Assembly: GCA_947466965.1 (NCBI GenBank)
Contig: CANIFU010000014.1
Location: 1 to 50,751, forward strand
Reading direction: 5' to 3'
DNA length: 50,751 nt
DNA from: Bacteroidota bacterium
Lineage (GTDB): Bacteria > Bacteroidota > Bacteroidia > 2-12-FULL-35-15
A program made the translations under genes and the position numbers. The notes beneath the pieces are model-generated. The model made no database searches and was not told where the DNA came from. It saw only the letters and a program-made list of their open reading frames with translations. This document shows, piece by piece, positions 17,108 to 34,444 of this stretch. How positions within the stretch are numbered: the first letter of the stretch is position 1; each line of letters starts with the position of its first letter.

Positions 17108-17115
17108 CCGTTAAG

Positions 17116-17131
17116 GCTGGCCAATGGGGCT
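17116..17131 (-). repeat. tRNA-His 3'-end remnant, copy 1 (leftmost)
   Basis: GCTGGCCAATGGGGCTC matches the 3' end of the tRNA-His gene at 25942-25958 with one change. It then diverges before the T-loop is complete. A hairpin is on its left, as at the intact tRNA. Confidence 0.75.
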
Positions 17132-17178
17132 CTCCTCGACTCCACTCGGGATAAACTTCTCGCACAAAAATTATCAAA

Positions 17179-17206
17179 AAAAATCTCAGCTTTCGCTGAG
17201 ATTTTT
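17179..17206 (-). terminator. Terminator of the AbiEii-type toxin/antitoxin unit
   Basis: A perfect 12-bp stem (AAAAATCTCAGC, loop TTTC) has A and T runs on either side. It lies 69 bp past the toxin stop on the minus strand, after a tRNA-His 3'-end copy. Confidence 0.8.
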
Positions 17207-17222
17207 AAGGGTGGCCAATGGG
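17207..17222 (-). repeat. tRNA-His 3'-end remnant, copy 2
   Basis: AAGGGTGGCCAATGGG equals the tRNA-His 3' end plus its flank (25938-25953), then breaks off into the sequence GAATGAAGTTGAACAC. It is placed between the toxin gene and a terminator, as expected for an attachment-site copy. Confidence 0.8.
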
Positions 17223-17242
17223 AATGAAGTTGAACACTTTTT
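17222..17242. repeat. 21-bp direct repeat, copy 1 (cargo 3' boundary)
   Basis: The 21 bases beginning GAATGAAGTTGAACAC are identical to 18780-18800. Similarity continues weakly for about 15 more bases. In both places the repeat lies between the tRNA-His 3'-end copy and the stop codon of the cargo. Confidence 0.85.
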
Positions 17243-17274
17243 GAGGATTATTGAGAAAATAATAAAGAATAAAT

Positions 17275-17928
17275 CTATTTAAGTGCCTTGATAAAATCAA
17301 TCATATCTATTTTTATTAGTTCCCAATGCTTTTCTCTTAAACATACCGGATCAAAATCTCCATCAGCATTTTCAAACTGGGTAAAATTCTTTTTTAAAAC
17401 AACTTTGTCATGACTATAAGGATATCTTTTTTCGTGTAAAGAAACCATTTCATCAACACTATACGCGTCCATTAATTCATGTATATCCCAAAAATCTTTT
17501 TTACGACCACCTCTTTGTATTACATCTAATTTCATTGCAATAATTTCTTCAACACTTGCAATACGAATATCATCAATCACAGTAATACCATCAATAAATT
17601 CATCCGTATAGAAAAGGTCTAGCTTAATGCTGTTACTCTCGCTTTCCCCGACAAAATAAGATTTACCAAAGCCTATTATATCATCGTTACTCGTATCAAC
17701 GTAAGGATAGTGCGAACGTAAAAAAGAATCTATCTTACCAAAATCAATTGAATCATAAGCTGCATCAGTAAATAAATCAATATCAACCGATTCTCTATGT
17801 CCTCTGTATAAACTTAATCCTGTTCCTCCAACCAATCTGAATTTATCAAACTCTTTAGCTGCCATAAGAGTTTTCAAAACACTCAATAACAAAGGAGTTA
17901 CTGTTTTATAAAATAAACTATTTGCCAT
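17275..17928 (-). CDS. Nucleotidyltransferase toxin, AbiEii/AbiGii family
   Basis: The 217-aa protein has the family's nucleotidyltransferase core: GGTGLSLYRGHRESVDIDLF at about residues 34-53, with the GG pair and the metal-binding DID at 49-51. A later Lys/Arg segment (AMKLDVIQRGGRKKDFWDI) is also conserved. AbiEii-type enzymes act as toxins of type IV-like systems in phage abortive infection; related MenT enzymes block tRNAs by adding nucleotides. Its start overlaps the upstream antitoxin gene by 11 bp. The start at 17928 was kept because of this coupling. It is cargo of the 17211-18770 segment. Confidence 0.87.
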   Translation of the reverse strand: MANSLFYKTVTPLLLSVLKTLMAAKEFDKFRLVGGTGLSLYRGHRESVDIDLFTDAAYDSIDFGKIDSFLRSHYPYVDTSNDDIIGFGKSYFVGESESNSIKLDLFYTDEFIDGITVIDDIRIASVEEIIAMKLDVIQRGGRKKDFWDIHELMDAYSVDEMVSLHEKRYPYSHDKVVLKKNFTQFENADGDFDPVCLREKHWELIKIDMIDFIKALK

Positions 17929-18379
17929 ACAATTTTAAAATTCCAGTTACTATATCTTTACCGTAAAAACGAATAATCTCTTTTTTTTCGATTTCATTAC
18001 CACGTTCAAACACTCTTTTTATAACTGCTTTTTTTTGTTTCTCCCAAGCAATCTTCTCCATTTTTGTATCCCAAAATAATATTGATCTTAACTTAGTAAA
18101 ATCAGGATGTTCCGTATTTTGTCTTCTTTTCTCTTCTTCAATATCGTAATAAACCTGTAAAATCATGAAATACCCCTCTTCCATGCCAAGAGCTTGCTCA
18201 ATCTTTAAAGCTAAAGGAGTGTTCATTTTTCTTTTCCCTTTAGTTATCGAAACTAGCGTCTGTGGAAACTCCTGCAAAGAAAGGGCAAAACGACCTTTGC
18301 CCATATTGCGTTGCTTCAACTCTCTCTCTAATACAATTCCAGGATGAATTCCTTTTATGATTTGAATATTTGATTTCAT
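17918..18379 (-). CDS. HTH antitoxin paired with the AbiEii-type toxin
   Basis: The 153-aa protein has an N-terminal Xre-type helix-turn-helix (about residues 10-75) beginning with the HigA/VapI-like phrase GIHPGIVLERELKQRNMGKG. The C-terminal part (LRSILFWDTKMEKIAWEKQK) resembles the DUF6922-like domain often found beside nucleotidyltransferase toxins in Bacteroidota. It probably neutralises the downstream toxin and represses its own promoter. A TATATTTG -7 element and an inverted repeat sit directly before its start. The 11-bp overlap with the toxin gene supports one operon. Confidence 0.82.
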   Translation of the reverse strand: MKSNIQIIKGIHPGIVLERELKQRNMGKGRFALSLQEFPQTLVSITKGKRKMNTPLALKIEQALGMEEGYFMILQVYYDIEEEKRRQNTEHPDFTKLRSILFWDTKMEKIAWEKQKKAVIKRVFERGNEIEKKEIIRFYGKDIVTGILKLYGK

Positions 18380-18383
18380 ACTG

Positions 18384-18411
18384 CAAATATAAACAATTTT
18401 GTTTACACAAA
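18384..18411 (-). promoter_or_regulatory. Antitoxin promoter with embedded operator
   Basis: On the minus strand TATATTTG (18391-18384) is the -7 element and TTTG at 18411-18408 lies 16 bp upstream. Between them is an inverted repeat with 7-bp arms, TAAACAA-TT-TTGTTTA (18390-18405). Binding of a dimeric HTH antitoxin there would block RNA polymerase. Confidence 0.6.
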
Positions 18412-18450
18412 TACTATTATATCGATTAAATCAAAAACACATAATTAATA

Positions 18451-18588
18451 TCATTTAGGAACTGGAATTAATGGATTTGTTTGTTCCGCTTGTTTAATAA
18501 TAGACTGCACATATATTTTAGCGAGTGAACGGAGGAAAGCTATTTCATCTTCTGTTAGGCCTTTAAGGGGATTATTGTTCTCAGACAT
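18451..18588 (-). CDS. Small conserved ORF A (45 aa) heading the toxin/antitoxin segment
   Basis: ATG at 18588 opens a 45-codon frame ending TGA at 18453-18451. Its protein starts MSENNNPLKGLTEDEIAFLR and continues with a helix (SLAKIYVQSIIKQAEQ). A clear homologue (ORF B, 50 aa, 25608-25760) lies in the next segment; the two share NPLKGL-EDEI-FLR-LAKIYV-SI-K. They differ at many bases yet keep the frame, which supports a translated gene. Function is unknown; size and helix suggest a small partner or DNA-binding protein. It precedes the antitoxin gene by 71 bp on the same strand. Confidence 0.7.
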   Translation of the reverse strand: MSENNNPLKGLTEDEIAFLRSLAKIYVQSIIKQAEQTNPLIPVPK

Positions 18589-18614
18589 ATTTATTAAGTT
18601 TAAAATTTATTTCT

Positions 18615-18622
18615 CAAACTTA
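18615..18622 (-). promoter_or_regulatory. Candidate -7 element of small ORF A
   Basis: TAAGTTTG on the minus strand matches TAnnTTTG and lies 27 bp before the ATG. The matching position 18 bp upstream reads TTAG, from the tRNA-like fragment, instead of TTG as in the other copy. Confidence 0.45.
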
Positions 18623-18639
18623 ATAAAAACCGATTACCC

Positions 18640-18656
18640 CTAATGGGGCTCGAACA
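18640..18656 (-). repeat. tRNA-His T-arm copy in the header of small ORF A
   Basis: CTAATGGGGCTCGAACAC matches the T-arm and acceptor side of tRNA-His with one difference across the 16-bp core (18640-18655). An equivalent copy lies at 25813-25828. Confidence 0.8.
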
Positions 18657-18709
18657 CGAAAAACATTCTTAAAACTATTGATTTTATTAGGAAACGGGAT
18701 TGTTTGTTA

Positions 18710-18743
18710 GTGCAGAAAACTATCTAAAATGACAAAAGCCCCT
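18710..18743. repeat. 34-bp exact direct repeat (header linker, copy A)
   Basis: This 34-bp block, beginning GTGCAGAAAACTATCTAAAA, is identical to 25883-25916. It lies between the T-arm copy and the terminator. Flanking bases on both sides remain similar, making this the best conserved part of a duplicated header of about 320 bp. Confidence 0.9.
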
Positions 18744-18759
18744 AAAATTAGGGGCTTTT
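18734..18759 (-). terminator. Terminator of the giant secreted-protein gene
   Basis: A perfect 12-bp stem (AAAAGCCCCTAA and its complement) is followed by TTTTG on the minus strand. It sits about 60 bp past the stop of the gene at 18818 and corresponds to the terminator at the intact tRNA-His. Confidence 0.85.
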
Positions 18760-18765
18760 GAATTA

Positions 18766-18779
18766 AGGGTGGGCAGTGA
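18766..18779 (-). repeat. tRNA-His 3'-end remnant, copy 3 (degenerate)
   Basis: AGGGTGGGCAGTGA aligns with AGGGTGGCCAATGG at copy 2 and at the intact tRNA, with three differences. The 21-bp repeat GAATGAAGTTGAACAC... follows directly. Confidence 0.65.
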
Positions 18780-18800
18780 GAATGAAGTTGAACACTTTTT
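18780..18800. repeat. 21-bp direct repeat, copy 2 (cargo 3' boundary)
   Basis: Identical to 17222-17242. It sits between a tRNA-His 3'-end remnant and the stop codon of the giant gene. Confidence 0.85.
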
Positions 18801-18817
18801 AAGGGTAATTGAAAAAA

Positions 18818-21800
18818 TTATTGCAAAACAATTTTCTTATTAATTACATTTTTATTTTCATCGATTACTTCTACAAAATAAACCCCAGCTAACATTTCTC
18901 CTTTTTCAATAACAAGTTGTTTTCCTGAAAAAACAATTGTCTTTATTTCTTTACCTAACACATCCTTTATTTTTATCGTGCTATTTTTTTGCACTTCATT
19001 AAAAGCAATTGTTGTTTGCTCGGTAAAAGGATTCGGGTAAATAGTAAATCCTGAATTGTTTGTAGTTAAAGCAAGCCCTGTAGCTAAAGGAATTATTGTT
19101 ATCGAATCCTGAGGTGTATTGAATACCTGTAGCGTACCAATATCATTATTTGCTATGTAATCAGAAATAGCTAAATTAAAAATTGAAATTGTACTTATAG
19201 ACGTCTTAGCTTGAAATTTAAAATCGGCTATTTTTCCAAAACCACTTACATTGTTGTGATCAATTCTTGTAATACCACCATATGCAGTTGATGAAAATGC
19301 GTCAATTTTTGCAATTGTTATAGCATCGGTTCCAGGCGTTCCTAACCAACTTGTTGGATAAGTTAAACTTTCTGTTCCCGGCTGAACCAATGAAACATCA
19401 TAATTAATATTAAAGGCAACTCCATATAAATTACTAACTGGCAATGTTGAACTTCCTGCCCATACCTCCACATCTACTATATCACCTGCATTATAAGTGC
19501 TGCTGGCTGTAACAAAATAAAGATCAGAGACTAATAATCTTGCATTACCAATACCTGGAGCAAATGCATGCACCAAACTAAAATTTAAATTAATTGCCAA
19601 CGTATCGTTATTGTCAATTACACCATCACCATTGCAATCGGCATGTTTTATGTCTGAACCGTTGGTTTCTAATGTCCCCCAATCGCTTGCAGAATAGGCT
19701 TGCCAAGTATTACTAACACTTGCACGTGGTGTTCCTGTTTGAGAATAAAATAAGCCAATAGGTAATAAATCGAAATTATTTGCAACAGAATCGTTGTTAG
19801 CATCACCTGGCCAAACGTAACAATCGTTATTTACAATTACGTTGACTGAACTAGAAACAGAAGAACAACCATTTATATCTGTAATCAAAACTGAATCAAT
19901 TTGAGAAGATAACACCGTAATATTTTGCGTTGTTGCACCAGTGCTCCATAAATATGAGGTTGCGATACTAGATGAAAGAATTACCGAATCTCCCAAACAA
20001 AAAGTTGTTGGGCCGCTTGGAGTTATAATTGGCGTGGAAGGCAATGCATAAACTGTTACGGCTGTGGCAACTGAAGTTGCTGAACAACCAGAAAAATCTG
20101 TTACAGTTACTGAATCATTTTCGGAAACAGCAACAGTAATGTTTTGCGTTGTTGCTCCATTTGACCATAAATAAGTGGCAAATCCAGAACCAGCATCAAG
20201 CATTACACTGCCACCAGCACAAAAACTTGTGGAACCACTTGGAGTAATAATTGCTGTTGGTAATGGTAATACCGTTACTGGTGTAATAGTTGAGGTTGCT
20301 GAACAACCATTTATATCAGTTATTGTCACAGAATCATTTTCGGAAGTTGAAACAGTAATGCTTTGCGTTGTTGCGCCTGTACTCCATAAATAAGAATTAG
20401 CAAGAGTTGATGTAAGCGTCACTGAATTTCCGGAACAGAATGTTGTTGGTCCGCTTAAAGTTATTGTAGGAGTAGCAGGAAGAGGATAAACAGTTATTGT
20501 TACAATTTGTGGTGTTCCTACACATCCTCCTACAGTTGCTGTGGGCGTTACAGTATAGGTTAATGTTTGAGCTACACCAGAACTATTGACTATCGTATCA
20601 TTTAATGTACTTGTTGTTTGAGCAATTAAACTTTCACCTGTTGTATTAACATTATCACCCGCCACCCACGAATAAGTAGAAGCCACAGAACTTGTAAATA
20701 CAATATTTACCGAACTACCACTACAACTTGCTTTAGAACTCATACTGGTCATTATCGGTCCTGCACTTATTTGATTTGAAAAAGTTACAAAGCTACCAGA
20801 ACCGCTCCCAGGAACTGAAACTGCCAAGTCGGGTCTATTATCGCCATCAATATCACCAATACAAATATTCTGAGGCCAAAAGTCAGTAAAGTAATCCACT
20901 TTGGTAGCAAAATCAATTAATCCTATTGTTGACTGATTTTTTAATAATGAAATTGTACTATCATTTTGATTTGCAACCGCAAGATCAGGTTTACCATCAC
21001 CATTAAGATCACCAATTGAAAGAACACCTGCCCCAGCCCGTGTTTGAAAATCAACCTTTGTAGCAAAAGATATAATTCCTATTGATCCAATATTTCTCAA
21101 TGTTGAAAGATGTGTGGAAGAAGAATTTGCGTTTGCGATTGTCAGATCGGGTTTACCATCTCCATCTAAATCACTTATATAAACACCTTCTGGATAGGAA
21201 CCTCCAGTATTAAAATTTACTCTTGGTGCAAAGGAAATAACTCCGATAGTGCATGTATTTTTGCAGACCGATACGGTGTAATCAACTTGATTTACAAATG
21301 CAAGTTCGGGTTTAGAATCCCCATCAATATCCCCGATAGCAACCCCCCAAGGAGCTGATCCTGTTGAATAGAACTGAGGTGATGCAAAAGATATCATTCC
21401 AATAGTAGAAGTATTTCTCAATATTGAACCATTATACACAGGTATTGTATAATTATCATTTGTTACTGCAATATCAGGTTTCCCGTCTCCATCTAAATCA
21501 CCTGACGTAAAATGTGGGTTCATTGCTGCTACAGTAAAATCTATTTTAGATGCAAATGAAATCGAACCAACAGTACTTGTATTTCTTAAGATCGATATTA
21601 AATTATTATTCAGCATTGCAATATCTGGTTTCCCATCCATATCAAAATCAGTTATTATCGTTTCAACAGGTACTATAAATGAAACGCTCAGGGGAACTGC
21701 AGCTGCGTATGAAATGCTTCCTGGAATACTGGTATTTCTTAATGCTATAATTCCTACACTTCCTCCACCATAAGATAATACCATATCATTTTTCCCGTCA

Positions 21801-24800
21801 CCATCAAGGTCCGCTGCAGATGCAAACCCATGATCTCCCGCAAGCCTGGTTGTTTTAGGTCCGAAAGACGAGGCTGTTAAATCTCCACTACATGGAAATG
21901 TTACAATAAATTGCTGATCTGAATAAGCAGTAGTATTGCTTGTTAAATTAGTAACTGTAATATATGCATACGTTGCCCCTCCAGGGACAACTACAGACAA
22001 TGAAGTTGACGTTGCAGAAGTAACAATAGCTTGAGTCGCACCAAAGAAAACTGCATTATTTAATGGACTTAGATCAAATCCGCATCCTGTAATAGTAACT
22101 GTTGTTCCTACATTACCCAAAATAGGAGAAAAAGAACTGATTGATGATTTTATCACGGCACTTACAGCTGTTCTTATAAGAGTTGTGCAACCTGCATTTG
22201 TTGCATCAACATAAAATAATGTAGTAGTATTTATGACGGGAGTATTAAAACTATTTCCTGTTCCTAATGAAACTCCCCCCACAGGATTAGCATACCAATT
22301 AATTGTACCCACTGATGCTGTTGCGCTTAAAGAAACTGATCCGGCACCACAACTATAAGAGGACACAACTGAAGTAATTGTTGGTCCTACATAAGCTGTA
22401 TTTCTGAAAAACGAAATTTTGTTAACTCCATTTTCAGAGACTATCAAATCTGGGCGCCCGTCACCATCAATATCACCAATTGCAATCCCTTGCGGATTTG
22501 TACCCGCAGCAAAATCAACTTTTGCAGAACAAGATATAGTTGCAATAGTACTTGTATTTTTTATTACTGAAATTGTAGTAGCTCCACTGTTAGCAATCGC
22601 AAAATCAGGTTTTCCATCTCCATCAAGATCCGTAATCGCCAAATGGAAAGGAGATGCTCCAGTTGCAAAATCTACTTTCGCGGCAAACGAAATAGTTCCA
22701 ACTGTACTTGTACTTTTGAATATTGAAATTGAATTTGCTCCATAATTTGTTGCAACGATATCCATTTTTCCATCTCCATTGATATCTGCTATACCAACAC
22801 ATTGAGTTGTTCCTGTAGTTGTAAAATCTATTTTTGCTGCAAATGAAATTGCGACCCCTGCACTCGTATTTCTGATGACGGAAACAGTACTAAAACTATA
22901 ATTTGCAGTTACAATATCTGCTTTCCCATCACCATCAATGTCATTTAATTTGACACTAACTGGTGCGACACCAGTTGCAAAATCCACTTTAGCAGCAAAA
23001 GATATTGTTATAACATTGCTTGTATTTTTAAAAACTGACGCAGTATTGGAGCCTTGATTCACCACAACAATTTCAGGTTTGCCATCACCATTAATATCAC
23101 GAATTGCAACATCTGCTGGATTGGTACCCGTTAAAAGATCGATTTTAGGTGCAAATGAAATTATTCCTGGTGTACTAGTGTTTTTTAAAACGGATACCGT
23201 ATTTGCAGAATAATTCACAACAGCAATGTCTAGTTTTCCATCTGCATTTATATCCCCAAAAGCTGATGCATATGGAGCCGTTCCTGTTACAAAATCAACC
23301 TTGGGAGCATAAGAAATCGTCCCCGCAGTTCCAATATTCTGATAAACTGAAACTGTATTGGTTCCGTAATTTGAAACAACCATATCCGTTTTCCCATCTC
23401 CGTCCAAATCGACAAGCGAAACACCTTTAGGATTTGCGCCTGTTATCGAATCAACTTTTACAGCAAAAGAGGTTGAATTAATAGCTCCAGCACAAGGAAA
23501 AGTGACATTAAATGACGATGTTGAATATCCCGTTAAAAGTGATGATAAATTTGTTACAGAAATTGGCTGATATGTTTCCGCAACAGGAACGGTAAAAGTA
23601 AGTGATGTCGTACTTGCCGAAGTAACGGTAGCCTTGATGGCTCCAAAGTACACACTATTATTTGCAATTGAAGGATCAAAATCAGTTCCAGTAATTACTA
23701 CCGATGTTCCAATACTTCCGGAAGTTGGAGTAAACGAAACAATAACTGGAGCTGGAACAGCGAGCGTAGTGATTGTCTGGACATCAGAATTTGAGCTTAA
23801 ACCACAAGCATTCGTTACTCTTACTCTATAATAATAAGTTATGTTCGGATATAACCCCGATACATTATAGCTAATAACATTTCCAACATTCAAATTTGTA
23901 TAACTGCTCAGCAATGAAGTAAAGGCTGCATCATAAGCAACATCCAAATAATAATTGACTGCCCCAGAAAAAGCACTCCAATTAGCATTAAATGATCCAC
24001 TTGTTATGACCGTTCCCGGAGATGACACTGGCGCGAAGGATCCTAAATTTCTTAAAACTGAAACTGCTCCTGCACTCGTTTGATCTGCTGTTGCTAAGTC
24101 AGGACTTCCATCACCGTCCAAATCGCCAGTTACAAGATAGGCTGGAACAGGTCCTGCGGAAAAATCATCTTTGGGTTGAAAATTAAAAGTACCAATTGTG
24201 CTTGCATTCTTTAAAACTGAAACGACTGTTGAACCGGTACAGGCAAGTGATACATCAGGAAATCCATCTCCATCAATATCATTTATAGAAACACAGAATG
24301 GGCCTGTTGCGGTTGCAAAATCAACTTTTGGTGCAAAAGAAATTGTTCCAGGTGTTCCGGTATTTCTTAACAAGGAAAGCGTATTTGCACCATTATTTGC
24401 AACGGCAAGGTCCAGCAAACCATCCCCATCCAAATCACCCAAAGCTACATTTCTAGGATTCGCTCCCGTTGCAAAATCTATATTAGGAGAAAATGTTACT
24501 GTTCCCACAGTGCTTATATTCCGGTATAACGAAATAGTATTTGAATTATAATTTGCAACAGCAATGTCAATTTTCCCGTCATCATCAACATCTCCAGTAG
24601 AAACACATTGTGGTGAAAATCCACAAGAAAGGTCAACTTTTGCCGCAAAAGAAATTGTAACAATTGTCCCCGTATTCTTAAAAGTTGAAATTGAAGATGC
24701 ACTGCTATTTGCAACAGTCATGTCTAATTTTCCGTCTCCATCAAAATCAGCAAGAGAGATACTTCGTGGAGATGTTCCTGTTACAAAATCGACTTTGGTA

Positions 24801-25483
24801 GCAAAAGATATTGCACCAATTGAACTGGTATTTTTCAAGATTGAAATTGTACCACTTCCATAATTTACAGTAGCCAAATCAAGCTTCCCATCTCCGTTAA
24901 TATCTCCCATTTTAAGATCAATTACCCCCGAACCAACGGTAAAATCTACTTTTGGAGCAAACGAAACAGAACCACTTGTACTTGTGTTTAAAAACACAGA
25001 TACTTTTGTGCCTGCGCCTCCGGATGCATAATCTGCCAAAGCAAGTTCTGATTTTCCATCACCGTCCAAATCTCCAATCGCAACACCATAAGGGGCAGAA
25101 AGTGCACCTGTAGAAAATGTTAACTGAGGTGCGAAAGAAGATGTATTGATTGCACCACCGCAAGGGAAAGTAACAAGAAACGGTTTAGGAGAATATCCAA
25201 TAAGATTTGTTGAAATATCAATAACGGAAATAAATTGATAAGTAGCACCAACCGGAACTGTTAAGGTTAAAGAAGAAATGCTCGCTGCAGAAACAACAGC
25301 CTGCGTTGCACCAAAAAAAACAATATTATTTGCAGGAGTCGCATTAAAATTACTTCCAGTTATTGTTACTGATGTTCCTACAGGGCCAGACATAGGAGCA
25401 AATGAAGTAATAATCGGCTGTGATATGGCAATATTGATAAAGCCAACAAACGCAAACAATGCAATGAAATAGATTTTTTTCAT
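18818..25483 (-). CDS. Giant T9SS-exported protein: three TIG + FG-GAP propellers, PKD-like repeats, dockerin-like and cohesin-like domains
   Basis: The 2221-aa protein starts with a signal peptide (to about residue 21). A TIG/IPT domain and seven FG-GAP/VCBS repeats with DxDGDGxxD calcium loops follow (about 22-480). Next come an FN3-like domain (about 484-575), TIG plus seven repeats (about 579-1030), an Ig-like domain, and TIG plus seven repeats (about 1111-1570). A PKD/Ig-like region has three near-identical repeats of about 68 residues (about 1670-1880). Two dockerin-like EF-hand loops lie near 1891 and 1948, and a cohesin-like beta domain at about 1979-2125. The last 78 residues are a T9SS type A sorting domain (YPNPF...GVYFVEV). 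Probable role: cell-surface or secreted adhesin or scaffold. It has no recognisable -7 element of its own and may be co-transcribed with small ORF B upstream. Confidence 0.88.
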   Translation of the reverse strand: MKKIYFIALFAFVGFINIAISQPIITSFAPMSGPVGTSVTITGSNFNATPANNIVFFGATQAVVSAASISSLTLTVPVGATYQFISVIDISTNLIGYSPKPFLVTFPCGGAINTSSFAPQLTFSTGALSAPYGVAIGDLDGDGKSELALADYASGGAGTKVSVFLNTSTSGSVSFAPKVDFTVGSGVIDLKMGDINGDGKLDLATVNYGSGTISILKNTSSIGAISFATKVDFVTGTSPRSISLADFDGDGKLDMTVANSSASSISTFKNTGTIVTISFAAKVDLSCGFSPQCVSTGDVDDDGKIDIAVANYNSNTISLYRNISTVGTVTFSPNIDFATGANPRNVALGDLDGDGLLDLAVANNGANTLSLLRNTGTPGTISFAPKVDFATATGPFCVSINDIDGDGFPDVSLACTGSTVVSVLKNASTIGTFNFQPKDDFSAGPVPAYLVTGDLDGDGSPDLATADQTSAGAVSVLRNLGSFAPVSSPGTVITSGSFNANWSAFSGAVNYYLDVAYDAAFTSLLSSYTNLNVGNVISYNVSGLYPNITYYYRVRVTNACGLSSNSDVQTITTLAVPAPVIVSFTPTSGSIGTSVVITGTDFDPSIANNSVYFGAIKATVTSASTTSLTFTVPVAETYQPISVTNLSSLLTGYSTSSFNVTFPCAGAINSTSFAVKVDSITGANPKGVSLVDLDGDGKTDMVVSNYGTNTVSVYQNIGTAGTISYAPKVDFVTGTAPYASAFGDINADGKLDIAVVNYSANTVSVLKNTSTPGIISFAPKIDLLTGTNPADVAIRDINGDGKPEIVVVNQGSNTASVFKNTSNVITISFAAKVDFATGVAPVSVKLNDIDGDGKADIVTANYSFSTVSVIRNTSAGVAISFAAKIDFTTTGTTQCVGIADINGDGKMDIVATNYGANSISIFKSTSTVGTISFAAKVDFATGASPFHLAITDLDGDGKPDFAIANSGATTISVIKNTSTIATISCSAKVDFAAGTNPQGIAIGDIDGDGRPDLIVSENGVNKISFFRNTAYVGPTITSVVSSYSCGAGSVSLSATASVGTINWYANPVGGVSLGTGNSFNTPVINTTTLFYVDATNAGCTTLIRTAVSAVIKSSISSFSPILGNVGTTVTITGCGFDLSPLNNAVFFGATQAIVTSATSTSLSVVVPGGATYAYITVTNLTSNTTAYSDQQFIVTFPCSGDLTASSFGPKTTRLAGDHGFASAADLDGDGKNDMVLSYGGGSVGIIALRNTSIPGSISYAAAVPLSVSFIVPVETIITDFDMDGKPDIAMLNNNLISILRNTSTVGSISFASKIDFTVAAMNPHFTSGDLDGDGKPDIAVTNDNYTIPVYNGSILRNTSTIGMISFASPQFYSTGSAPWGVAIGDIDGDSKPELAFVNQVDYTVSVCKNTCTIGVISFAPRVNFNTGGSYPEGVYISDLDGDGKPDLTIANANSSSTHLSTLRNIGSIGIISFATKVDFQTRAGAGVLSIGDLNGDGKPDLAVANQNDSTISLLKNQSTIGLIDFATKVDYFTDFWPQNICIGDIDGDNRPDLAVSVPGSGSGSFVTFSNQISAGPIMTSMSSKASCSGSSVNIVFTSSVASTYSWVAGDNVNTTGESLIAQTTSTLNDTIVNSSGVAQTLTYTVTPTATVGGCVGTPQIVTITVYPLPATPTITLSGPTTFCSGNSVTLTSTLANSYLWSTGATTQSITVSTSENDSVTITDINGCSATSTITPVTVLPLPTAIITPSGSTSFCAGGSVMLDAGSGFATYLWSNGATTQNITVAVSENDSVTVTDFSGCSATSVATAVTVYALPSTPIITPSGPTTFCLGDSVILSSSIATSYLWSTGATTQNITVLSSQIDSVLITDINGCSSVSSSVNVIVNNDCYVWPGDANNDSVANNFDLLPIGLFYSQTGTPRASVSNTWQAYSASDWGTLETNGSDIKHADCNGDGVIDNNDTLAINLNFSLVHAFAPGIGNARLLVSDLYFVTASSTYNAGDIVDVEVWAGSSTLPVSNLYGVAFNINYDVSLVQPGTESLTYPTSWLGTPGTDAITIAKIDAFSSTAYGGITRIDHNNVSGFGKIADFKFQAKTSISTISIFNLAISDYIANNDIGTLQVFNTPQDSITIIPLATGLALTTNNSGFTIYPNPFTEQTTIAFNEVQKNSTIKIKDVLGKEIKTIVFSGKQLVIEKGEMLAGVYFVEVIDENKNVINKKIVLQ
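19830..20470 (-). repeat. Three tandem PKD-like repeats within the giant gene
   Basis: Three successive units of roughly 68 codons share PSGPTTFCSGNSV-like starts and the phrase YLWSTGATTQ followed by ITV and DSV-ITD-NGCSA. The DNA copies are similar but not identical, consistent with older internal duplication. Confidence 0.8.
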
Positions 25484-25607
25484 TCTTTTTAATTTTAAAA
25501 TGGGAGTAACATTGTAATCAAAGAACTTGCTTTGATTTTCAATTAGCTAATATACTGTTTATTCAAACAAGAACCTTTTTCTTAATTATTCGACTTGTTT
25601 TATAATA

Positions 25608-25760
25608 CTAACTAATTCTTTTACTTTTAGAAATTGGAAGCAATGACGTTTGTTCTTCTATTTTTTTAACAATAGACTCTACATAAATCTTAGCTAATAA
25701 ACGAAGAAAAATTATTTCATCTTCTGGTAAGCCTTTTAGCGGATTTTTGGTCTTAGACAT
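25608..25760 (-). CDS. Small conserved ORF B (50 aa) heading the giant-gene segment
   Basis: ATG at 25760 opens a 50-codon frame ending TAG at 25610-25608. The protein starts MSKTKNPLKGLPEDEIIFLR, continues LLAKIYVESIVKKIEE, and ends in a basic tail (KSKRIS). It is homologous to ORF A (18451-18588) over about 35 residues, then diverges. The start of the giant gene lies 124 bp downstream on the same strand. No known family is recognised. The repeated position at the head of two unrelated cargos suggests that it belongs to the segment rather than to the cargo. Confidence 0.72.
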   Translation of the reverse strand: MSKTKNPLKGLPEDEIIFLRLLAKIYVESIVKKIEEQTSLLPISKSKRIS

Positions 25761-25787
25761 TTTTTAATTAGTTTAAAAATTATTTCT

Positions 25788-25816
25788 CAAACTTAATTAA
25801 AACCTATTACCTCCAA
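25788..25816 (-). promoter_or_regulatory. Promoter of small ORF B, with -33 inside a tRNA-like fragment
   Basis: On the minus strand the -7 element is TAAGTTTG (25795-25788). A TTG at 25816-25814 lies 18 bp upstream and belongs to the tRNA-derived sequence CCATTGG. The ATG is 28 bp further on. Confidence 0.5.
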
Positions 25817-25828
25817 TGGGGCTCGAAC
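25813..25828 (-). repeat. tRNA-His T-arm copy in the header of small ORF B
   Basis: CCAATGGGGCTCGAAC is identical to bases 25946-25961 of the intact tRNA-His gene 133 bp away. After CACG the match to the tRNA ends. Confidence 0.9.
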
Positions 25829-25882
25829 ACGTAAAATATTCTAAAAACTGTTGATTTTATTAGGAAATGAGATTGTTTGTTT

Positions 25883-25916
25883 GTGCAGAAAACTATCTAA
25901 AATGACAAAAGCCCCT
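25883..25916. repeat. 34-bp exact direct repeat (header linker, copy B)
   Basis: Identical to 18710-18743; see that copy. Here it lies between the T-arm copy and the tRNA-His terminator. Confidence 0.9.
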
Positions 25917-25931
25917 GAAATCAGGGGCTTT
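25908..25931 (-). terminator. Terminator of tRNA-His
   Basis: A perfect 11-bp stem (AAAGCCCCTGA/TCAGGGGCTTT, loop AA) is followed on the minus strand by TTTTG. It begins 10 bp past the mature tRNA 3' end. Confidence 0.85.
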
Positions 25932-25940
25932 CACTTTAAG

Positions 25941-26015
25941 GGTGGCCAATGGGGCTCGAACCCACGACCCTCGGTACCACAAACCGATATTCTAACCAAC
26001 TGAACTATGGCCACC
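25941..26015 (-). tRNA. tRNA-His (anticodon GTG)
   Basis: The minus strand folds as a full cloverleaf. The acceptor stem is GTGGCCA/TGGCCAC, with an encoded extra 5' G opposite C73 (the tRNA-His identity feature). The D arm contains AGTTGGTTA, the anticodon stem is TCGGT/ACCGA with loop TTGTGGT (anticodon at 25980-25978), and the T arm is GTGGG-TTCGAGC-CCCAT. CCA is not encoded. Its 3' end faces the repeat-bounded region to the left, where partial copies of this end recur. Confidence 0.95.
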
Positions 26016-33354: not shown

Positions 33355-33503
33355 TCGCTTTGTTTAGAGGTTTATAAAAGAATAACGAAGGTGAAAGGGG
33401 TTTATTGTATTAGGGGTAAAAAAACATAAAAAATTTCTCCACTTCGGTCGAAATGACAACTGAGTAGGCTCGAAATGACTGCCCAGATTGATTTTCAATA
33501 AAA

Positions 33504-33531
33504 AAGGGCCATTCCTTTCGAAACAGCCCTT
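33504..33531 (-). terminator. Probable terminator downstream of the repeat array
   Basis: On the minus strand AAGGGC pairs with GCCCTT across a 16-nt loop and is followed by a T run. If used, the mRNA of the sigma-factor gene at 33842 would carry the whole repeat array as its 3' UTR. Confidence 0.4.
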
Positions 33532-33540
33532 ATCCTTATA

Positions 33541-33841
33541 ACTTAACCACCCAATTACTTAATCACTTAGTTACCCTATTACTTAATAACTTACTTAATC
33601 ACTTACTTACCCAATTACTTAATCACTTACCCAATTACTTATAACTTAATCACCCAATTACTTAATCACTTAACCACCCAATTACTTAATCACTTACTTA
33701 CCCAATTACTTAATCACTTAATCACCCAATTACTTAATCACTTACTTACCCAATTACTTAATCACTTACTTAATCACTTACTTAACCAATTACTTAATCA
33801 CTTACTTACCCAATTACTTAATCACTTAGTTACCCAATTAC
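33541..33841. repeat. Degenerate tandem array of CAATTACTTA(ATCACTTA)n units
   Basis: About 300 bp consist of units such as CCCAATTACTTAATCACTTA with extra ACTTAC insertions. CAATTACTTA occurs about eleven times, at spacings of roughly 20 to 37 bp. There are no unique spacers. All frames are closed. The array starts at the stop codon of the sigma-factor gene. Confidence 0.9.
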
Positions 33842-34444
33842 TTAATAACTAATAATCAACTCCTTCTCCTCAATCATTTTACGCAAGTTAATCAATGCAT
33901 AACGCATCCTTCCCAAAGCTGTATTAATACTCACATTGGTTTGCTCGGATATTTCCTTGAAGCTCATATCGTAATAATGACGCATCATTAACACTTCTCG
34001 TTGCTCTGCAGGTAGTGCCTCTATCAATTTACGGATATCCTTGCGAATCTGTGACTGTATAATTTCCTCTTCAGCAGTTTTATCGAATACACCCAACACA
34101 CTAAAGATATCAAAATCATCACCTTCCTCATTTGTACCACCGCTTATGGTAGGCATGCGCTTGTCTCGTCTAAATGTGTCGATGATCAAATTGTGTGCAA
34201 TACGCAATACCCAAGGTAAAAACTTGCCTTCTTCATTATAATGACCTTTTTTTAGAGTATTGATCACTTTAATAAAAGTGTCCTGGAATACATCTTCCGC
34301 TAATGCTTTGTCTTTAATAGTAAGCATAATGTAGCTGAAAATTCTGCGTTTGTGTCGCGTGATTAACAAAGATAAAGCTGATTCATCACCCTTGATGTAC
34401 TGGTTAACGAGTTCTTGATCGTCAACAAACTGTTGAATAGGCAT
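33842..34444 (-). CDS. ECF-type RNA polymerase sigma factor
   Basis: The 200-aa protein has a sigma region 2 (about residues 20-95: LITRHKRRIFSYIMLTIKDK, then AEDVFQDTFIKVI and WVLRIAHNLIIDTFRR). Region 4 (about 135-190) contains LPAEQREVLMMRHYYDMSFK and ISEQTNVSINTALGRMR. The linker of about 35 residues is rich in Gly, Asp and Glu. This type is highly conserved in Bacteroidota and usually encoded without a neighbouring anti-sigma gene, as here. It has a consensus promoter about 190 bp upstream and a leader of about 180 nt. Confidence 0.92.
   Translation of the reverse strand: MPIQQFVDDQELVNQYIKGDESALSLLITRHKRRIFSYIMLTIKDKALAEDVFQDTFIKVINTLKKGHYNEEGKFLPWVLRIAHNLIIDTFRRDKRMPTISGGTNEEGDDFDIFSVLGVFDKTAEEEIIQSQIRKDIRKLIEALPAEQREVLMMRHYYDMSFKEISEQTNVSINTALGRMRYALINLRKMIEEKELIISY

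Follow-up and report, generated by a model that had tools for sequence, protein, structure and literature searches.

A duplicated stretch forms the tRNA-proximal end of two small, probably mobile inserts behind tRNA-His in a Bacteroidota genome

Two tandem units at the tRNA-His 3' end

The window (the whole stretch of 50,751 nucleotides analysed here) contains a tRNA-His gene, the sole Rfam match in the region, followed by an insert made of two tandem units, A and B, each with its own terminator at the start and a tRNA-His 3'-end copy at the close. An older unit lacking genes lies behind them. The features are as follows, with unit A before unit B.

25940..26014, minus strand: tRNA-His (GTG), the integration target (ARAGORN, Rfam)
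18767..25939, minus: unit A (header A, 6.7-kb gene, trailer A and a degenerate copy of the tRNA-His 3' end); missing in G025
25608..25939, minus: header A, the tRNA-proximal end of unit A (repeat families, blastn)
25908..25931, minus: terminator hairpin of header A, directly after tRNA-His (fold z -4.99)
25813..25828, minus: 16-bp copy of the T-arm/3' region of tRNA-His in header A
25788..25795, minus: TAAGTTTG -7 box of the Bacteroidota type (TAnnTTTG) in header A, starting at 25795
25764..25800, minus: palindrome of header A, between -7 box and start codon (fold z -4.15)
25608..25760, minus: small ORF A, 50 amino acids, beginning MSKTKNPLKGLPEDEIIFLRLLAKIYVESIVKK
18818..25483, minus: cargo of unit A, a 2221-amino-acid secreted protein with FG-GAP repeats and T9SS sorting (Pfam)
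18769..18843, plus: trailer A, antisense reading VGSENEVEHFLRVIEKIIAKQFSY followed by a stop, beginning in the tRNA-end copy
18767-18780: degenerate tRNA-His 3'-end copy closing unit A, CTCACTGCCCACCC
17209..18766, minus: unit B (header B, small ORF, toxin-antitoxin pair, trailer B and a tRNA-His 3'-end copy)
18451..18766, minus: header B, in unit B (repeat families, blastn)
18733..18760, minus: terminator hairpin of header B (fold z -4.83)
18642..18655, minus: 14-bp copy of the tRNA-His T-arm in header B
18615..18622, minus: TAAGTTTG -7 box of header B, starting at 18622
18590..18627, minus: palindrome of header B, overlapping the -7 box (fold z -5.66)
18451..18588, minus: small ORF B, 45 amino acids (P0001)
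17918..18379, minus: antitoxin, HigA-like HTH plus DUF6922 (Pfam, NCBIfam)
17275..17928, minus: toxin, AbiEii-type nucleotidyltransferase (Pfam PF08843, 63.5 bits against a cut-off of 22.5; PADLOC AbiEii)
17211..17282, plus: trailer B, antisense reading VANGNEVEHFLRIIEKIIKNKSI followed by a stop, beginning in the tRNA-end copy
17209-17222: tRNA-His 3'-end copy closing unit B, CCCATTGGCCACCC
17115..17208, minus: older gene-less unit of 94 bp (terminator, spacer and a tRNA-His 3'-end copy at 17115-17128)

The regions 18451-18770 and 25608-25940 had been predicted to be homologous throughout, and the comparison of the two headers bears this out (83% identity over 305 bp, blastn E = 9.7e-88), with two repeat families running across both (D7, 88% over 189 bp; D11, 76% over 139 bp). 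The terminator, the 34-bp exact match (25883 in A, 18710 in B), the TAAGTTTG element and the small ORF named in the original prediction are present in both headers; the T-arm copy, given there as 16 bp, has that length in header A and measures 14 bp in header B. This internal copy is a copy of the target site. The cargos are unrelated, as had been noted (the FG-GAP/T9SS protein in A, the HTH-DUF6922 and AbiEii pair in B), and a third header copy is absent from the 3.1-Mb draft genome. Four features go beyond what had been predicted: nothing separates header A from the 3' end of tRNA-His; a long palindrome occupies the interval from the -7 box to the small-ORF start; the units are alike over 59 bp at their 3' ends as well; and a copy of the tRNA-His 3' end stands at every unit border. 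Elsewhere in the window, a dense repeat region of 12-bp period (family D1) occupies 33497-33876, and a collagen-like repeat of 54-bp period (family D10) lies at the window edge (1-197).

The common 3' ends, which we call trailers, are 86% identical over 59 bp (18763-18821 and 17205-17263; family D13), and each leads into a tRNA-His 3'-end copy and then into a new terminator. Because header and trailer are both common to A and B, each unit consists of header, cargo and trailer.

The tRNA-His locus was read in 34 genomes of the genus (all the genomes compared seem to be draft or metagenome-derived assemblies). In a close relative, G025, tRNA-His is joined directly to the sequence that lies to the left of window position 17222, with flanks matching at 84-86%; positions 17223-25939 (8.7 kb) are missing, indicating that these 8.7 kb were inserted exactly at the tRNA-His 3' end. 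The last 14 nucleotides of the gene (25940-25953, CCCATTGGCCACCC) may act as the attL-side core of unit A. Allowing up to four mismatches, this core is found at four positions in the window (25953, 18780, 17222 and 17128; 0.35 expected by shuffling), at six in G031 (0.20 expected; the one at 1118 is a likely chance match) and at three in G035 (0.10 expected), and a new terminator stands beside each copy in the three sequences, bar the likely chance match in G031. A stricter scan with the 16-nucleotide tRNA-His end gave eight forward and no reverse matches over 232 kb. Tandem units with direct repeats of the tRNA-His 3' end thus occur in the window, G031, G035 and G006.

The 94-bp gene-less unit stands directly behind tRNA-His in G025, and units of this kind (about 95-100 bp, composed of a terminator, a REP-like CCYGAGYGGAGTCGARGG and a tRNA-end copy) were observed in the window (17115-17208), G006, G025, G031 and G035. 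G031 stacks further units, including one with an OmpA-like gene and a recombinase remnant. A gene resembling FAD monooxygenases was also seen between trailer-type junctions in G006, with a homologue beside the toxin-antitoxin unit in G031 (L109:274-1722, L021:101-1426); it is probably another cargo of the same array. The original prediction took the terminator to insulate a cassette; because many different terminators are found behind tRNA-His within the genus, it is better read as an element end that re-terminates the tRNA-His transcript.

Cargo, header and small ORF across genomes

The gene of unit A is a member of a family common in the genus, a homologue being unmatched in G025 and G035 at the threshold used. 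In the toxin-antitoxin (TA) pair of unit B, which we infer to stabilise the unit, the AbiEi antitoxin model was unmatched in Pfam, PADLOC and NCBIfam, and a DUF6922 protein with a HigA-like HTH takes the antitoxin position. As a separate observation, this antitoxin protein is nearly invariant between species (dN 0.01-0.04 at dS 0.5-0.9), a constraint that is unusually strong for an antitoxin.

Across the contigs of 84,980 species and 99 relatives, the small ORF turned up in only three other genomes, all of this lineage (G024, G031 and G035), so that header homologues extend beyond the two places in this genome; the viral contigs gave no match to the header. The same HTH-DUF6922/AbiEii pair follows the small ORF in all three, and the block of 1.57 kb comprising header, small ORF, both TA genes and trailer is kept in G031 (92%) and G035 (88%), the homology of G024 to unit B beginning near the T-arm copy. 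What lies downstream is therefore nearly always alike: the header has one usual cargo, and the gene of unit A is the single exception. The TA pair and the trailer also occur in G029 with no recognisable header or small ORF, indicating that header and TA pair are separable. The proposal of a fixed 5' module attached to variable cargo accordingly describes this genome (discrete units, a fixed 5' end of terminator, promoter and small ORF, unrelated genes behind it) and does not extend to a general platform for any cargo; we rejected a header acting promiscuously across Bacteroidota on the same scan.

The TA genes have diverged far less between species (toxin dS 0.29-0.57, antitoxin dS 0.52-0.9) than the genes on either side of the island (dS 1.75-2.37 or saturated), indicating that the TA unit moved or recombined between species after their separation. 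Sliding identity along the unit is patchy and mosaic: the small ORF of unit B is nearly identical to that of G031 (dS 0.03), and the antitoxins of the same two units stand at dS 0.60. We had also considered that header A might be a recent intragenomic copy of header B, which is ruled out by a dS of about 0.5 between them, as large as between species.

The small ORFs of A and B are 62% identical. The frame is open in all five header copies, with dN/dS nearer to 0.5 than to 1 in most pairs, and it has no match in Pfam (over cut-off), PHROGs, NCBIfam or PADLOC. In G078 and G019 a relative immediately precedes a serine recombinase, in G034 a relative precedes one at a distance of a single gene, and in G028 a relative follows a tyrosine integrase; some matches to the small-ORF profile are sequences used to build it, the independent ones being G019 (E = 3e-10) and G034 (E = 3e-4). 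Upstream, the TAnnTTTG -7 box is retained in five of five headers, and in header A and G035 the internal tRNA-end copy provides a TTG 18 nucleotides ahead of it. RNA covariation found no two-sided compensatory change in the palindrome, which is therefore equally possible as a DNA operator. The product may plausibly be a recombination-associated, autoregulated small protein.

The trailer and the missing recombinase

Apart from the small ORF and the cargo, units A and B contain no other genes: those for integration and transfer are absent (ORF listing, Pfam), as are an integrase and the capsid- or packaging-hijacking genes that characterise phage satellites of the PICI/PLE type. With regard to integron gene cassettes, which have an attC site and the IntI integrase, no integrase (PF00589) is among the matches listed for the window's contig, and the unit borders are tRNA ends; the matches listed for contigs of the genus carrying tRNA-His place no tyrosine integrase (PF00589) there.

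The antisense frame of the trailer (VANGNEVEHFLRIIEKIIKNK) recurs in G006, G024, G029, G031 and G035. Behind tRNA-His in G007 and G029 we found C-terminal remnants of serine recombinases that read into the tRNA, end in VANGARTHDPRYHKPIF, share the VANG frame of the trailer and are closest to the recombinases of G034 and G078; a further serine-recombinase remnant lies near tRNA-His in G031. The trailer profile also matches G019 and G032 (E about 4e-4 and 8e-4), and the G019 match adjoins a recombinase-like 3' end, in another frame. A trailer that is the element-side attachment arm, derived from the tail of a recombinase gene, would fit these reading frames. We also observed, in G032:C4 (L113:342-685), a unit of about 300 bp between a tRNA-Leu and a copy of its 3' end, closing in the trailer type of the tRNA-His units.

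The only intact serine recombinase with an attP like the tRNA-His end (GGGTGGCTCATGG compared with GGGTGGCTGATGG) is on a phage-like contig of G034; the best NCBIfam match of the G034 recombinase is CcrB, below the cut-off. Its tail (GSWNPVQTNLTSFLKLVERIINRAA) resembles the trailer by position and by eye only, the frame across the core differs, and the trailer profile does not recover it; for this reason the recombinase is an agent that we infer. On that contig, G034:C98, a tyrosine recombinase, a small ORF, an ORF of 51 amino acids and the large serine recombinase (L147:8763-10358) lie next to one another (L147:7437-10358). Searches at the level of genus, order and class returned only G034, G019 and G078 as close relatives and no intact element with a recombinase at tRNA-His and a trailer at its far end; IMG/VR gave no intact progenitor, and phage records gave only distant TP901-1-like integrases.

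Intact recombinase genes adjoin other tRNA genes, and at tRNA-His only C-terminal remnants are seen (G007, G029 and G031). Among 30 serine-recombinase loci examined in the genus, 22 (L117, L119-L124, L126-L130, L134, L136-L140, L142, L143, L145 and L146) lie against a tRNA or tmRNA gene at its 3' end, always convergently; the neighbouring tRNAs are Met, Leu, Phe, Ser, Val, Lys and Gly-Leu, and most of the reading frames enter the tRNA antisense. The genome under study has such loci of its own at G000:C8 about 37169 (tRNA-Phe) and at G000:C13 (tmRNA). The 2014 Islander paper (PMC4383910) reserved tRNA targeting for tyrosine integrases, no serine recombinase being known to use tRNA genes; in this lineage serine recombinases appear to do so. 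Where intact recombinase elements lie beside tRNA-Phe, tRNA-Lys, tRNA-Met, tRNA-Val or tmRNA, no tRNA repeat was found at the far end (up to five mismatches, 1.4-21 kb).

Origin of the array and related systems

tRNA genes are classic landing sites of bacterial islands, and units A and B are probably recombinase-less, CIME-like integrative elements that accreted head to tail at the tRNA-His 3' end. Each unit would be flanked on both sides by a tRNA end or its copy, would bring a terminator of its own for the tRNA, and would carry a cargo of one or two genes. The header would be the attL-side arm of one element family, containing the terminator, the internal tRNA-end copy, the small ORF and a promoter (TTG/TAnnTTTG) whose palindrome would be an operator or leader; the trailer would be the attR-side arm, which looks like the 3' tail of a recombinase gene formerly extending across the attachment site. 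The most likely agent of integration is a large serine recombinase, either provided by other elements or encoded at first and later lost, on the pattern of CIME accretion. Since the units are bounded by tRNA ends and have no recombinase of their own, we read the locus as a decayed or hitchhiking island array and not as a general platform for swapping cargo. The orientation of the small ORF counts against the accretion model: in the units it is directed away from the tRNA, the reverse of the recombinase operon found beside tRNA genes.

It is possible, and we suggest it tentatively, that the units are functional satellites: hitchhikers without a recombinase that keep both arms and a small ORF resembling a recombination factor, and that depend for movement on serine recombinases from phages or islands, whether resident or incoming. 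The movement between species after their divergence, the small ORF that is open in five copies with dN/dS mostly nearer to 0.5 than to 1, the company its relatives keep with recombinases, and the phage-like contig of G034 with its attP all agree with this; the small ORF, however, belongs to no known family, and mobilisation in trans needs compatible att sites, the one at the A/B border being degenerate.

Tandem duplication and homologous recombination through repeated tRNA ends and REP-like sequences, with no site-specific recombinase acting on the present units, is an unlikely sole origin. It would account for the mosaic identity of the TA unit, the recurrence of short gene-less units with REP-like CGGAGTCGAAGG and the lack of a recombinase, but not for headers as different as those of separate species (dS about 0.5), for borders placed exactly at the tRNA 3' end, or for the same trailer at tRNA-Leu with that tRNA's own end.

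Slightly harder to uphold, and in our view improbable, is the cassette platform of the original prediction, in which the header is an insulated expression module whose promoter and small protein serve cargos that are swapped behind it. The units do combine a common header and trailer with different genes, the cargo genes end near the trailer in both, and the -7 box and palindrome are retained in all five headers. Yet only one alternative cargo is seen against the same TA pair in three other genomes, G029 carries that pair and the trailer without a recognisable header or small ORF, and sequences that follow tRNA-His here generally have a terminator anyway.

That tRNA-His natively has the header as its conserved 3' flank, and that the TA pair was inserted behind it, would suit the position of header A next to the gene and is nonetheless hardly credible, because other sequence follows tRNA-His in most of the 34 genomes (including G025), header B lies 7 kb away with the TA pair, and in G035, G006 and G031 the header begins only after another tRNA-end copy.

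Returning to accretion at tRNA-His, a wider and rather doubtful generalisation would be that the large serine recombinases of this lineage systematically target the 3' ends of tRNA and tmRNA genes, carry the att site within their own gene, at its 3' end, integration thereby swapping the C-terminal tail, and are accompanied by tiny recombinase-less satellites, with two arms and a small ORF, that exchange cargo. With recombinase-less units of 94 bp to 7 kb, the array is a compact natural system for the question of minimal integrative-element size, and it also poses the questions of whether the units hitchhike and of what the TA pair and its companion small protein contribute.

Among known systems, the staphylococcal SCC and composite SCC islands also combine serine recombinases (CcrAB or CcrC) with tandem att-bounded elements, some of them without ccr. 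SCC integrates in rlmH, not in a tRNA gene, and the recombinases found here score far below the SCC models. For prophage Mx8, Tojo et al. (cited in PMC4383910) describe an attachment site within the integrase gene intP, such that integration alters the C-terminus of IntP; Mx8 is a phage element, whereas the tRNA-His array shows only a fossil tail. AbiE is a type IV TA system in which the AbiEii nucleotidyltransferase toxin is encoded in a two-gene operon (PMC3985639), and it is reported to stabilise an ICE (PMC11062541); the AbiEii toxin is common to both systems, and the antitoxin here is the HigA-like HTH with DUF6922 rather than AbiEi.

In CIMEs and the tandem accretion of ICEs and IMEs (ICESt1/ICESt3; PMC5704250), elements stack at one site, lose integration and transfer genes and keep attL and attR. 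The units described here are alike, core copies bounding them on both sides and the site without inserts being present in G025. Accretion of ICESt1/ICESt3 was tested by excision and transfer and involves a tyrosine enzyme, whereas the array is known from sequence alone and its presumed recombinase is of the serine type. Most alike are the ssrA-specific islands of Dehalococcoides (McMurdie et al. 2011, PMC3146451), which lie in tandem downstream of one RNA gene, are bordered by short direct repeats of its 3' end with a conserved motif by each repeat, and carry varied cargo; their serine recombinase DsiB is CcrB-like, with the repeat inside its gene, and 15 of the 31 islands have no integration module. 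Those islands target tmRNA with a 20-bp repeat, whereas the array described here targets tRNA-His with 14-18 bp; its units are far smaller (94 bp to 7 kb), belong to another phylum with other cargo, and include no recombinase-bearing unit. The resemblance lies in the tandem order, the borders at repeats of an RNA-gene 3' end and the many units without an integration module.
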